Origin: an uncultured Modestobacter sp.
GTDB lineage: Bacteria > Actinomycetota > Actinomycetes > Mycobacteriales > Geodermatophilaceae
Assembly (NCBI RefSeq): GCF_947486615.1
Contig: NZ_CANKUD010000001.1
Location: 372,001 to 436,000, forward strand
Direction of reading: 5' to 3'
Length of the DNA: 64,000 nucleotides
The position numbers and the translations under genes were made by a program. This document shows, piece after piece, positions 5,027-10,421 of this stretch. The notes beneath the pieces are model-generated. The model had not been told where the DNA came from. It searched no databases and saw only the letters and a list, made by a program, of their open reading frames with translations. The first letter of the stretch is position 1. Every line of letters begins with the position of its first letter.

Positions 5027-6088
5027 TCATCCCCCCGCGCGCTCCTCGCCCGGTGACGACGCGGCCTCGCGGGCGCGCGCCCGCTCGCGCTGCGGTTCCA
5101 CGGTGTACTTCGGGTCCTTGGCGCTGGTCATCCCGGCGTCGAAGACGCCGAACCGGGTCAGTGCCGAGCCGGCGGCCACCAGCGCACCGCCGGCGACGGC
5201 GCCCCAGCGGCGGCGACCGGTGGCCAGCAGCAGGCCGGTGCCGGCTGCGGTGCTCGCCCGGGCGGTCCGGAGCAGCAGCCCCGCCCGGCCGATCCGGTAG
5301 GGCTCGCTGACCAGCCCGTGGCCGTGCTCCACCCGATGGGTCATCGCGAGCTCCACGGCCGCGCCGGCGATCGCCAGCCGGCGGGCCGGTGCCGCCTCGT
5401 CGACCGGGGTGAACACGGTGCACAGGGCACCGCCGCCGGCCGCCGCGGAGCCGGCGAACAGGTAGGGCAGCTCCCGGTGCGGCTCGTGCCAGGAGGGCAC
5501 CGAGGTGTTGGCCAGCAGTACCGCGGTGTAGGTGGTCATCGGCCCACCGAGCACGGCGGCCACCGCCCCGGTGACCCGGCGCAGCCGGGGGAACCAGCCC
5601 AGCAGCTGGGCACCGGCGGTCGCTGTGGTCAGCGCGCTGAACGGGGCCAGCACCCACGAGCCCACCGACAGCGGCGAGGTCACCTTCAGCACCCGCAGCA
5701 TGTTCAGGAACCGCTCGGGCCGGCCCAGGTCGTGGATCAGGAAGCCGACGCTGGCCAACGCACCACCCGCGGCCACCCGGTGCGCGGCGATCCCGAGCGC
5801 CGGGCGGTGGGTCATGTCGGCGAGCGCGCCGAGCATCGCCGACGTACCGGCCGCGCCGCCGAGGAAGAGGTACGCCGGCACGTCAGGCTGCTTCCACACC
5901 GGCGGCTTGATCACCGGCCGCCCGTAGTAGGAGGTGAACTCCGCCTCCTCCACCATCGACACACCCGGGTCGTCACCCGCCCGCCGTCGGCGCCGGCCCT
6001 CCCGCCGCTGGGCCGGCGCCCCGTCGGCCCGCCGCCAGCCGGCACCGGGCAGAGACACGCCCATCTCGGCGCCCACCTCGGCGCTCAC
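5027..6088 (-). CDS. NrfD/PsrC-type membrane subunit of formate dehydrogenase
   Basis: This is a polytopic quinone-interacting membrane anchor that takes electrons from the FeS subunit. From GTG at 6088 it is 353 aa. A hydrophilic N-terminus of about 55 residues contains FTSYYGRPVIKPPVWK, then comes the PAYLFLGGAAGTSAMLGALAD start of the NrfD domain and about eight hydrophobic helices. The motif HDLGRPERFLNMLRVLKVTS is typical of NrfD proteins. The start is set by a GTGA overlap with the fdhB stop. An NrfD subunit replaces the cytochrome b (FdnI type) of enterobacterial enzymes. Electrons probably go to menaquinone, by inference. Confidence 0.9.
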   Translation of the reverse strand: MSAEVGAEMGVSLPGAGWRRADGAPAQRREGRRRRRAGDDPGVSMVEEAEFTSYYGRPVIKPPVWKQPDVPAYLFLGGAAGTSAMLGALADMTHRPALGIAAHRVAAGGALASVGFLIHDLGRPERFLNMLRVLKVTSPLSVGSWVLAPFSALTTATAGAQLLGWFPRLRRVTGAVAAVLGGPMTTYTAVLLANTSVPSWHEPHRELPYLFAGSAAAGGGALCTVFTPVDEAAPARRLAIAGAAVELAMTHRVEHGHGLVSEPYRIGRAGLLLRTARASTAAGTGLLLATGRRRWGAVAGGALVAAGSALTRFGVFDAGMTSAKDPKYTVEPQRERARAREAASSPGEERAGG

Positions 6089-7122
6089 CGCCGGTGCCCG
6101 GCGAACGCCGACAGCGCCAGCCCGAAGGCCATCGCCGCCCCGGCGGCCGCGTGCCGCCACATCGACGGCAGGTCGCGGGTGGTGACCACCGGGTCCGGCG
6201 GCAGACCGTAGACCTCCGGCTCGTCCAGCAGCAGGAAGAACGCCCCCACCCCGCCGACCCCGTCGGACTCGTCCCGGCCGTAGAGCCGGGCGCCCTCCAC
6301 CCCGTCGGCCTGCAGCGCCGCCAGCCGGGCGTCGGCCCGGGCCTGCAGCTCGTCCAGGTCACCGAACTGGATCGACTCGGTCGGGCACGCGGTCGCGCAG
6401 GCCGGCATCAGCCCGTCGGTCAGCCGGTCGTAGCAGAGGGTGCACTTGAACACCCGGCCGTCGTCCTCGCGCTGGTCGATGACGCCGTAGGGGCAGGCAG
6501 GCACGCAGTAGCCGCAGCCGTTGCAGATGTCCTCCTGCACGACCACCGAGCCGTACTCGGTGCGGAACAGCGACCCGGTCGGGCAGACGTCCAGGCAGCC
6601 GGCGTGCGTGCAGTGCTTGCACACGTCCGACGACATCAGCCAGCGGATCTCCCGGTCACCGGACTGCGTCTGCTGCGGCGCGGTCTGCTCGGCCGTGGTG
6701 GCCGACGCCGGCACCTCCGCGTGCACCACGGGCGGCTCGGCCAGCGGACGTGGCGAGCCGACGTCGCCGGGCCGCCCGACGGTGGGCATCGGCAGGTCCA
6801 CCGCCCGGCTCTGCTCGACGAAGGCCACGTGCCGCCAGCTGTTCGCCCCGAGCATCCCGGTGTTGTCGTAGGACTCACCGGTCAGGCCCAGGACGTCGAC
6901 CCGCCCGTCCGCCCCGTCCATCGGGAGGGTGTTCCACTCCTTGCAGGCGACCTCGCAGGCCTTGCACCCGATGCAGACCGAGGTGTCGGTGAAGAACCCG
7001 ACCCGGGCCGGGTGGTCGGCGTCCGAGGTGCTCTGCCCGACCACGTCCGGCACCGGGCCGAACAGCCGGTTGCCCGGGTCGTCGCCGGTGAAGGCACTGC
7101 TGAGCGAGCTGATCGACGTCAC
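6085..7122 (-). CDS. fdhB: Formate dehydrogenase iron-sulfur subunit
   Basis: Electron-transfer subunit with four ferredoxin-type cysteine groups: CIGCKACEVAC (residues 50-60), CKHCTHAGCLDVC, CNGCGYCVPAC and CTLCYDRLTDGLMPACATAC. This is the 4x[4Fe-4S] pattern of FdnH/FdoH. From GTG at 7122 the protein is 345 aa. A GTGA overlap with the fdhA stop fixes the start. The C-terminus carries one hydrophobic segment (AAAGAAMAFGLALSAFA), a possible membrane tether. A roughly 60-residue Ala/Pro/Gln-rich insertion lies between the first and second cysteine groups. It passes electrons from FdhA to the NrfD-type subunit. Confidence 0.94.
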   Translation of the reverse strand: MTSISSLSSAFTGDDPGNRLFGPVPDVVGQSTSDADHPARVGFFTDTSVCIGCKACEVACKEWNTLPMDGADGRVDVLGLTGESYDNTGMLGANSWRHVAFVEQSRAVDLPMPTVGRPGDVGSPRPLAEPPVVHAEVPASATTAEQTAPQQTQSGDREIRWLMSSDVCKHCTHAGCLDVCPTGSLFRTEYGSVVVQEDICNGCGYCVPACPYGVIDQREDDGRVFKCTLCYDRLTDGLMPACATACPTESIQFGDLDELQARADARLAALQADGVEGARLYGRDESDGVGGVGAFFLLLDEPEVYGLPPDPVVTTRDLPSMWRHAAAGAAMAFGLALSAFAGHRR

Positions 7123-10100
7123 GACTTCTCCTCGATGGGGGCTCGTCCGTTGTGCGGCAGCCGACCGCTGCCCGACCCGGCCCGCTGCCGGTACGCCTCG
7201 ACGTACTCGACGAGGGCCGGGCCGCGGGGGCGCCGTCCGGGCTGCACGTCGCAGGTGGCCACCTTCGACTCCTGGATGTGCACGTTCGGGTCCATGACCA
7301 CCCCGAGCACCTCGTTGGCCGAGTCGCCGGTGGTGAGGCCGTTGGAACCCCAGTGGTAGGGCAGCCCCACCTGGTGCACCTCCCGCCCGGCCACCCGCAG
7401 TGGCCGCATCCGCTCGGTCACCAGCACCCGCGCCTCGATGGCGTTGCGGGCGCTGACGATCGTCGCCCAGCCCAGGTGCTCCAGCCCCCGTTCGGCGGCC
7501 AGCTGCGGGCTCACCTCGCAGAAGAACTCCGGCTGGAGCTCGGTGAGGTAGGGCAGGTTGCGGCTCATCCCGCCGGCCGTGTGGTGCTCGGTGAGCCGGT
7601 AGGTGGTGACGACGTAGGGGAACACCTCGCTCTGCGCCGGGTTGGGCCGGTTCCACGCCCCGCGCAGCTCTTCCCGCGCCGGGTTGGCCTGGCGGGAGTA
7701 GAGCGGGTTGGGCACCGGGGACTCGGCCGGCTCGTAGTGCGAGGGCATCGGGCCGTCGGCCAACCCGGACGGCACGAACAGCCAGGCCTTCCCGTCGTTC
7801 TGCATGATGAACGGATCGGCGCCGCCGATGCCGTCCTCGGCCTGGGCGTCGTCCGGCGGCACGTAGTCCGGGCGCTTGGTCGCCTGGAAGTCCGGCACGT
7901 CCGGGCCGGTCCACCTCCCGGCGTCCTCGTCCCAGTACACGTACGCCTTGCGCTCGCTCCACGGCTTGCCCGCGGGGTCGGCCGAGGCGCGGTTGTACAG
8001 CGTCCGCCGGTTCATCGGCCACGCCCAGCCCCACTCGGGGGCCACCCAGGTCTGCTCGCGGTGCGGCTTGCGCCGGGCGGCCTGGTTGACCTCGTCGGCG
8101 TAGACGCCGGAGTAGATCCAGCAGCCGCACGCGGTGCTGCCGTCGTCGGCCAGCTCGGTGTAGCCGGAGACCGCCGTCCCGTCCGGCCCGGTGCCGCTGA
8201 TCTCCCGGAGCACCGCATCGGCGCTCGGCTCGCGCAGCGGACCGTGCGTGGGGTAGTCCCAGGTGAGGTCCAGCAGCGGGCGGTCCCGCGGGTCGGTGGA
8301 GCCGGCCAGCTTCTCCCGGATGAGCCGGCCCAGGTGGAAGTAGAACCACAGGTCGCTGCGGGCGTCGTCCGGTGGCTCGACGGCCTGGTGGTGCCACTGC
8401 AGCAGCCGCTGGGTGTTGGTGAAGCTGCCGTCCTTCTCCACGTGCGTGGCGGCGGGCATGAAGAAGACCTCGGTGCCGATGTCCTCGGTCCTCAGCTCGC
8501 CGGTCTCCAGCTCGGGACCGTTCTGCCAGAAGGTGGCCGACTCGATCAGCTGGAGGTCCCGGACCACCAGCCATTCCACGTTGGCCAGCCCGAGCCGGGC
8601 CAACTTGCCGTTCGCGTGGCCCACCACCGGGTTCTCCCCGGCCAGGAAGTAGCCCGGGACCTTGCCCTGGATCTGCTGGGCGATGGTCTGGTAGGTGCTG
8701 TGGTTGCCGGTCAGCCGGGGCAGGTGACCGAAGGCGAAGTCGTTCTCCGGCGTCGCCGCGTCACCCCACCAGGCCTTGAGCAGGCTGACCGCGTACTTCT
8801 TCATGTTGCCCCAGTAGCCGACCGATCCGGCCGCCTCGCCGATGAAGTCGTCGAGGTCCCGGTGCTCGCTGGCGTGCGGCATCGGGATGTAGCCGGGCAG
8901 CAGGTTGTACAGCGTCGGGATGTCGGTCGAGCCCTGGATGCTGGCGTGCCCGCGCAGCGCCAGGATGCCCCCGCCGGGGCGGCCCATGTTGCCCAGCAGC
9001 ATCTGCAGCACGCTGGCGGTGCGGATGTACTGCACGCCCACGGTGTGGTGGGTCCAGCCCACCGAGTAGACGAACGCGCTGGTGCGCTCCCGGCCGGAGT
9101 TGGCCGTCAGCGCCTCGGCGATGCGGGTGAAGACCGCCGGCTCCAGCCCGCAGACCTCGTGCACCATCTCCGGGGTGTACCGGGCGTAGTGCCGCTTGAG
9201 CACCTGGAAGACGCACCGCGGGTGCTCCAGCGTCTCGTCCCGCTTCGGCTTGCCGCCCACGGTGATCCCACCGCTGCCGGCCTCCTCCGACCGGCTGACC
9301 TCGTGCGTCTCCTCGTCACCGGCGCCGCGCCCGCCCTCCTCGCGGTTGGTGCCCGGGGCCCCGGAGGCGCCCGGCTGCGGCGACTGCCGCTGGCCGGCGG
9401 CCGCGGTCACCTGGGTGCCCTCGTACTGCCAGCTGGACTCGTCGTAGACGCCCTTCTCCGGGTCGTAGCCGGAGAAGACGCCGTCCAGGTCCTCGGTGTC
9501 GGCGAAGTCCTCCCGCAGGATCGCCGCCGCGTTGGTGTAGTTGACGACGTAGTCGCGGAACTCCTTGCCGTTGCGCAGCACGTGGTTGATCAGGCCGCCG
9601 AGGAAGGCGATGTCGGTGCCGGCCCGGATCGGGGCGTGCACGTCGGCCAGCGCGCTGGTCCGGGTGAACCGCGGGTCGACGTGGATGACCGTCGCCCCGC
9701 GCGCCTTGGCCTCCATCACCCACTGGAAGCCCACCGGGTGCGCCTCGGCCATGTTCGAACCCTCGATGACGATGCAGTCGGAGTTCGCCAGGTCCTGCTG
9801 GAACATCGTGGCGCCGCCACGACCGAACGAGGTCCCGAGACCCGGGACCGTGGAGGAGTGCTATATGCGGGCCTGGTTCTCGACCTGCACGGCGCCCATC
9901 GCCGTGTAGATCTTCTTCATCAGGTAGTTCTCCTCGTTGTCCAGCGTCGCCCCGCCGAGGCTGGCTATGCCCATCGTCCGGTTGACCGTCATGCCGTCGA
10001 CCTCGTCCTGCCAGGTCTCCCGGCGGGTGGCGATCACCCGGTCGGCGATCATGTCCATCGCCGTGTCCAGCTCCAGCGGCTCCCAGTCGGTGCCGTGCGG

Positions 10101-10421
10101 ACGCCGGTAGAGCACCGTGGTCTGCCGGGTCGGGCTGGTGACCAGGTTGCGGCTGGCCGCTCCCTTCGGGCAGAGCCGGCCGCGGCTGATCGGCGAGTCG
10201 GGGTCGCCCTCGATCTGCACGACCTGCTCGTCCTTCACGTACACCCGTTGCCCGCAGCCCACCGCGCAGTAGGGGCAGATGCTCTTGGCCACCCGGTCGG
10301 CGCTGGCGGTGCGGGCCACCAGCGAGTCCGTCTTCGCGCTCCGCACGGCGTCACCCCGGCCGAAGGGGTCACCGTCGGTCAACTGCCGGAACACCGGCCA
10401 GGCGTTCAACCACGTCTTCAT
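7119..10421 (-). CDS. fdhA: Selenocysteine formate dehydrogenase, catalytic subunit (UAG-Sec)
   Basis: Molybdenum/tungsten bis-MGD formate dehydrogenase, FdnG/FdoG type, oxidising formate to CO2. Read through one in-frame TAG (9861-9863), the gene encodes 1100 aa. Without readthrough it is two ORFs, 186 and 913 codons, in the same frame. The N-terminal [4Fe-4S] ligands are C49, C52, C56 and C84. The interrupted stretch reads QARI-[TAG]-HSSTVPGLGTSFGRG, exactly where E. coli FdnG has ARV-Sec-HGPT. Downstream, GSNMAEAHPVGFQWVMEAK is canonical. No twin-arginine signal is seen, so the enzyme probably faces the cytoplasm. Residues of about 337-391 are a low-complexity insertion. ATG 10421 is preceded by AGAAGAGG; the gap to ctaD is 20 bp. 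Confidence 0.92.
9827..9851 (-). promoter_or_regulatory. Bacterial SECIS element of fdhA
   Basis: On the minus strand, directly after the TAG, GGTCCCG-GGTCT-CGGGACC forms a 7-bp GC stem with a 5-nt loop. Three flanking ACG/CGT bases can extend it around a bulge. Counting the U of UAG as 1, the loop GGUCU occupies 22-26, and U17, G23 and U24 fall at the same numbers as the SelB-contacting bases of the E. coli fdhF SECIS. That spacing is the hallmark of a functional bacterial SECIS. Confidence 0.88.
9861..9863 (-). other. UAG selenocysteine codon of fdhA (residue 187)
   Basis: In-frame TAG at the active-site position that is Sec (UGA) in E. coli FdnG/FdhF or Cys in non-seleno homologues. Both flanks are conserved and in frame. 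Going from TGA or TGC/TGT to TAG needs two base changes, which argues against a simple nonsense mutation. UAG-programmed Sec has been reported in Geodermatophilus and Blastococcus (Mukai et al. 2016). The window contains no selA, selB, selD or tRNA-Sec gene to confirm it. Confidence 0.9.

Follow-up and report, generated by a model that had tools for sequence, protein, structure and literature searches.

The UAG triplet at codon 187 of an actinobacterial formate dehydrogenase (FDH) gene, fdhA, is very probably read as selenocysteine (Sec). The gene lies in a 64-kb window, the whole stretch of DNA analyzed here (G000:C1:372001-436000), which belongs to the genome of a soil bacterium, 4.70 Mb in size and 99.98% complete (G000). 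Alignment of the codon with the Sec site of other FDHs, a tRNA-Sec(CUA), the genes selA, selB, and selD, further genes interrupted by TAG, and a conserved hairpin behind the codon all argue for this sequence-based assignment, which an earlier note on this DNA had proposed and which these findings support. In the explanation we favor, at a probability of about 0.96, fdhA would encode a selenocysteine FDH made by means of tRNA-Sec(CUA), SelA, SelB, SelD, and the hairpin, the Sec codon having moved from UGA to UAG once within the Geodermatophilaceae. Several lines support UAG as the codon for selenocysteine across most of this bacterial family, beyond an oddity confined to a few strains.

The fdhA Gene and Its In-Frame TAG

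The features of the locus are as follows.

7119..10421, minus strand: fdhA, FdnG-type formate dehydrogenase catalytic subunit, 1,100 residues with the TAG read through (NF041513, TIGR01553, PF00384, PF04879, PF01568)
9861..9863, minus strand: proposed selenocysteine codon, TAG, codon 187 of fdhA (aligned with the X (Sec) of 1kqf_A and 1h0h_A)
9831..9849, minus strand: proposed SECIS hairpin, GGUCCCG-GGUCU-CGGGACC, 11 bases past the UAG (the six inner pairs kept in 47 aligned sites)
6085..7122, minus strand: fdhB, encoding the iron-sulfur subunit, with a hand-assigned GTG start (TIGR01582, PF13247)
5027..5956, minus strand: membrane anchor of the NrfD type, with a hand-assigned ATG start (PF03916, 42.2 bits, cut-off 25.8)

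Plus-strand bases 9861-9863 read CTA, giving TAG on the minus strand. Within the frame from 10421 to 7119 (minus strand), which opens with ATG and closes with TGA, this TAG at residue 187 is the sole internal stop, flanked as NQARI-TAG-HSSTVPGLGTSFGRG. The product scores 1961.9 bits against NF041513 (cut-off 1400) and 951.1 bits against TIGR01553 (cut-off 814.2) and carries the Pfam domains PF00384, PF04879, and PF01568; with family cut-offs exceeded and the proposed Sec codon at the aligned active site, it classes as an FdnG/FdoG-type formate dehydrogenase. Frame and profile matches bear out the earlier description of a 1,100-codon FdnG-type gene with a single in-frame TAG at residue 187, and the further claim that UAG stands exactly at the Sec position of E. 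coli FdnG holds in the phmmer alignment to 1kqf_A, where residue 187 falls on the X (Sec), as it does in 1h0h_A. In 9qm0_A, a protein named as selenocysteine-containing, a C is written at the position that phmmer aligns to residue 187. The Sec codon of E. coli FdnG is UGA. That protein, also a molybdenum enzyme, carries its Sec where the TAG of the window aligns, within QARV-X-HGPT as against QARI-TAG-HSST; unlike it, the window product has about 55 residues (335-388) that lie between two aligned blocks and are without counterpart.

Downstream of fdhA sit fdhB and the gene for the NrfD-type anchor. The former matches PF13247, and its longer frame scores 164.5 bits against TIGR01582, below the cut-off of 334.7; the longer frame of the latter has no NCBIfam match. 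A rough selection of ORFs in the window (n = 37) ends in 35 TGA and two TAG stops, in agreement with the two TAG stops counted earlier.

Selenocysteine Machinery and Further UAG Genes

The earlier note had proposed searching the genome for a tRNA-Sec(CUA), for selA, selB, and selD, and for further in-frame UAG genes with a hairpin, and all of these are found. The tRNA-Sec gene lies at G000:C8:168236-168327 (RF01852, 67.7 bits) with the anticodon cta; all 91 positions of the model are aligned, and the variable arm is long. On account of the anticodon, ARAGORN calls it tRNA-Pyl. This label and the splitting of such genes that would result from tools assuming UGA are practical consequences of the recoding. 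ARAGORN finds no tRNA within the 64-kb window itself. Family searches place selD at G000:C8:167246-168154, adjoining the tRNA-Sec on the opposite strand, and selA at G000:C8:176116-177384; selB, identified by reading the ORF list, follows immediately after selA. The sel genes thus share contig C8, and the FDH of the window is on contig C1. The source genome thereby combines a CUA tRNA-Sec, an in-frame UAG at a Sec site, selA, selB, and selD, and a candidate SECIS hairpin, the features of a UAG-Sec system.

The roughly 8 kb between tRNA-Sec and selA (L003:501-8039, G000:C8) resemble, on reading, a sugar-utilization operon with a regulator, an ABC transporter, and a glycosidase; in another genome, G003, selA begins 55 bases after the tRNA. 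A second RF01852 match in the source genome (C5:43372, 49.7 bits, cut-off 47) was set aside as a better fit to the ordinary tRNA model, as was L007; L006 reached no threshold.

Two other genes of the source genome carry an in-frame TAG. The second FDH, at C5:79834-83181, is 72% identical to the first and has TAG at the Sec site and the same hairpin. The other, an AhpC-like gene on contig C6, reads GDW-TAG-PYCC; it is present in 27 of 96 family genomes, with TAG at that site in all 27, and, by eye, the codon in these AhpC-like genes is followed by a hairpin whose loop is of the GGUCC type. Two members of this set, in G052 (C79, L264) and G019 (C14, L265), lack a single base about 14 bases past the TAG, which breaks the frame. 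The two genomes are from different genera, and in both the base is absent from the identical position, immediately ahead of the hairpin. An AhpC/TlpA-type match with an in-frame TGA (L126, G000:C8:88410-88661) was rejected as a Sec gene and read as a probably damaged one, since its TGA reads as a tryptophan position before the motif cysteine.

The decoding that we infer from these components would begin with the charging of tRNA-Sec(CUA) with serine. SelA would convert the seryl-tRNA-Sec(CUA) using selenophosphate from SelD, SelB would bring the charged tRNA to the ribosome and bind the hairpin beginning 11 bases after the UAG, and selenocysteine would be inserted at the UAG, placing selenium in the protein. 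At gene ends, UAG would remain a terminator.

The Proposed SECIS Hairpin

Reading of the FDH Sec sites gave 112 in total (54 TAG, 58 TGA), some genomes being represented both by a named locus and by a G locus. For the alignment, 47 of these sites were hand-picked for distinctness (18 TAG and 29 TGA). All 282 cells of the six-pair stem (columns 16-21/27-32) are paired, compared with 30.1-66.3% in slid controls. Stem cells changed on both sides number 20, against a shuffled mean of 4.8, a count that none of 500 shuffles equals; 19 of the 20 double changes come from one pair, columns 18/30, where both partners are third codon positions and five pair types occur. In the window, the closing pair passes from C-G to G-C via CCC to CCG and CTG to CTC, both of which are synonymous. 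Folding energy is less distinctive: over 50 nt, the hairpin is indistinct from shuffles (z -0.71), in 36 nt it forms on its own and reaches z -1.74 with 12 of 200 shuffles equally good, and the TGA relative L022 gives z +1.11. The conserved hairpin is accordingly offered as a proposed SECIS supported by covariation at synonymous positions, not by 50-nt folding energy. That most of the covariation stems from one pair, that three of the six pairs are invariant across the 47 sites, and that the 50-nt energy is ordinary all weigh against the favored explanation.

Distribution in the Geodermatophilaceae

Among the best 80 of at least 590 named FDH loci, those that were read, TAG occupies the Sec site in 22 of 22 Geodermatophilaceae and TGA in 58 of 58 others. 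The 22 TAG records bear the names Blastococcus, Modestobacter, Goekera, Geodermatophilus, Klenkia, or Trujillonella, and within the same 80 loci the closest relatives of the FDH of the source genome are from Blastococcus. At an E value of 1e-100, an FDH match is present in 86 of 96 family genomes; residue 187 is covered in 84 of these 86, and each covering match contains, by hand count, exactly one TAG. Its position at the Sec site was verified by sequence in the window, L129-L158, L236, and 11 of 15 further stretches. The other four stretches are without the Sec-site motif: one, from G072, was taken at the tRNA and not at the FDH; one, from G084, reaches a contig end, the FDH match beginning at residue 204; and two are the FDH copies of G040 (L341 and L342, on C4 and C12). 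In these copies, the frame is shifted and the alignment passes directly to residue 203, from 179 in the first and from 170 in the second, which leaves both without codon and hairpin; the first copy also holds one TAG further along. The gaps could reflect either a deletion or an assembly fault. These copies, in a genome with a CUA tRNA-Sec, count against the favored explanation, as do the two of 27 AhpC-like frames broken after the TAG. Klenkia-type FDHs were also considered as split genes, an idea that was rejected as the paired matches each lie within one open frame.

A tRNA-Sec(CUA) is present in 87 of the 96 family genomes, including all 86 with an FDH match; in one batch of 65 CUA genes, the anticodon was identified by pattern in 58 and by eye in seven. 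Seven genomes (G005, G008, G010, G016, G018, G026, and G031, in genera g6, g8, and g10) have UCA alone. In the remaining two, both incomplete, tRNA-Sec was not recognized: G033 has two weak matches, one of them a tRNA-Ser by ARAGORN, and G024 has one weak match.

At E 1e-100, the UCA genera g6, g8, and g10 yielded no FDH, and the TGA side of the switch within the family consequently rests on one weak candidate gene. This is an AhpC-type frame of G010 (L336, C104) that reads SSFT-TGA-PGT, followed by an AGCGCC-GGTCC-GGCGCT hairpin. Its AhpC-type match scores 24.3 bits, below the Pfam cut-off of 26, and the read-through frame matches no Pfam family; no other match of the AhpC search across ten genomes had an internal stop. 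We take it to resemble deiodinase-like selenoproteins. Judging from anticodon and reading frame, the UCA genera may use TGA for Sec, with the G010 frame a candidate UGA selenoprotein.

Alternative Readings of the UAG

A nonsense mutation or sequencing error in a dying gene could explain an in-frame TAG, TAG being a stop codon that ends two of the 37 roughly chosen window ORFs, and broken FDH copies do occur in G040. Set against this are the single TAG in each site-covering match of 84 of 84 family genomes, the 1,100 codons that are otherwise open, and a hairpin kept with paired synonymous changes, which together make such an accident almost certainly the wrong account. The CUA anticodon and the tRNA-Pyl label of ARAGORN could instead suggest pyrrolysine. 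The variable arm of tRNA-Pyl is given as three nucleotides in a passage of PMC7609411, whereas the tRNA of the source genome fits RF01852 over 91 positions and has a long arm; selA, selB, and selD lie near it, and the site of codon 187 is a Sec site in other organisms. Pyrrolysine at this codon is therefore scarcely credible.

Read-through of the UAG could also deliver chiefly serine, cysteine, or some residue other than selenocysteine, for example under selenium shortage. According to a passage of PMC13188914, serine comes first on tRNA-Sec, and incomplete conversion would thus be possible. The retention of selA and selD speaks against this, as does the fact that 112 of 112 Sec sites are TAG or TGA, with no cysteine or serine codon, a count biased by the choice of sites through a flanking motif from Sec-type relatives. 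Predominant insertion of another amino acid is very unlikely, and selenocysteine remains the preferred reading of codon 187.

Probable Origin of the Codon Switch

An FDH tree (FastTree) of 80 rows, 29 TAG and 51 TGA with the TGA loci L081-L087 omitted, places the TAG rows on one side of a branch with a support of 99, both paralogues of the source genome among them. A SelA tree of 22 rows comprises ten CUA, eight UCA, and four outgroup rows, the UCA rows being labeled by genus and including G024, in which no tRNA-Sec was recognized. Its ten CUA rows form one clade (100/100), outside which the eight UCA rows fall into two groups, the g6 group being nearest (89/86); the four outgroup rows are not grouped on a single side, and the branch of one is very long. 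Together, the two trees fit one switch after g6, g8, and g10 split off, which suggests that the change from UGA to UAG happened once within the Geodermatophilaceae. In the course of events that we infer, the Sec codon would have moved a single time inside the family, tRNA anticodon and selenoprotein genes changing together. The sister genera with a UCA anticodon give the switch a direction, and the move of a recoded codon between two stop codons is thereby open to study in living relatives.

The earlier note had called this gene an independent-looking instance of UAG-Sec. This was overstated: the FDH is closest to that of Blastococcus, in a family with published UAG-Sec, and the trees fit a single switch.

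A Genome with Two tRNA-Sec

One genome, G015, has a tRNA-Sec(CUA) on contig C11 and a tRNA-Sec(UCA) on C17, the latter with the highest RF01852 score listed (81.8 bits). It also has a TAG FDH, whose locus (L148) is identical to L018, Geodermatophilus sp. LHW52908, in 6,321 of 6,321 bases. Two features lie close together on C17 (G015:C17:1169-2157).

L159:1169-1263: tRNA-Sec(UCA) (RF01852)
L159:1579-2157: CMD-domain frame, NRCFY-TGA-MESH (PF02627, 28.2 bits, cut-off 23)

The TGA of the CMD gene aligns with the second cysteine of a CxxC motif, CEYC, in a plasmid relative (L266). A seven-pair hairpin with the loop GUU starts 10 bases past the TGA, its stability no greater than that of shuffles (z 0.22). 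Among 66 CMD matches in 18 genomes, this gene alone has an internal stop. Since a single base separates TGA from a cysteine codon, a nonsense mutation is a serious alternative. Relatives were not found on viral contigs, and there were no matches in 394 class genomes at E 1e-25, a threshold at which this is little informative; the plasmid search returned 327 records, all below 60% identity, of which L266 was the one aligned.

Along C17, the G+C content amounts to 0.61-0.68 over the initial 6 kb, to about 0.70-0.73 as far as 18 kb, and to 0.70-0.82 beyond, and the contig bears frames that were recognized by eye as transposase-like. A foreign contig is unlikely, since C17 continues into sequence common to five of 25 other congeners (89-91% identity over about 180-210 bases). 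Tentatively, and at somewhat less than even odds, one UGA to UAG swap after the three early genera split off may have been followed in G015 by the later gain of a UGA-type cassette, tRNA-Sec(UCA) plus a CMD gene with TGA. If so, a single SelA and a single SelB would serve both Sec codons within one cell.

Relation to Known Systems

UAG-Sec decoding in the Geodermatophilaceae was reportedly described by Mukai et al. in 2016. Passages of a later paper describe it, with tRNA-Sec(CUA), in FDH, UGSC, and AhpC genes of three genomes (PMC5330540; Santesmasses et al., 2017). With UAG-Sec of this family in print, the fdhA of the window adds one more case to a system already described. The system of those passages and the present one share the family, the tRNA-Sec(CUA), TAG at the FDH Sec site, and an AhpC gene with Sec-TAG and hairpin; they differ in that three genomes are covered there versus 96 here, which include UCA genera and one two-tRNA genome. 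In the passages available from it, a 2026 review (PMC13188914) gives UAG-Sec only for engineered systems. A literature search, with subscription journals mostly outside its coverage, found no other paper on Geodermatophilaceae UAG-Sec; within the same coverage, it likewise turned up nothing on the UCA genera, on the grouping of the UAG side as one clade, or on the genome with both tRNAs.

Canonical UGA-Sec FDHs of other actinobacteria belong to the same protein family and have the same hairpin loop, but use TGA as the Sec codon in the 58 non-family loci among the best 80 of at least 590. Other actinobacteria also have plasmid blocks of the order fdh-nrfD-selD-tRNA-selA-selB, unlike the source genome, whose sel genes on C8 are apart from the FDH on C1. 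Plasmids of Tsukamurella and Arthrobacter (L339, L340) unite fdh, nrfD, selD, selA, and selB in one block, with a tRNA-Sec-like match, absent from the annotation, between selD and selA, and the Arthrobacter plasmid is typed as conjugative.
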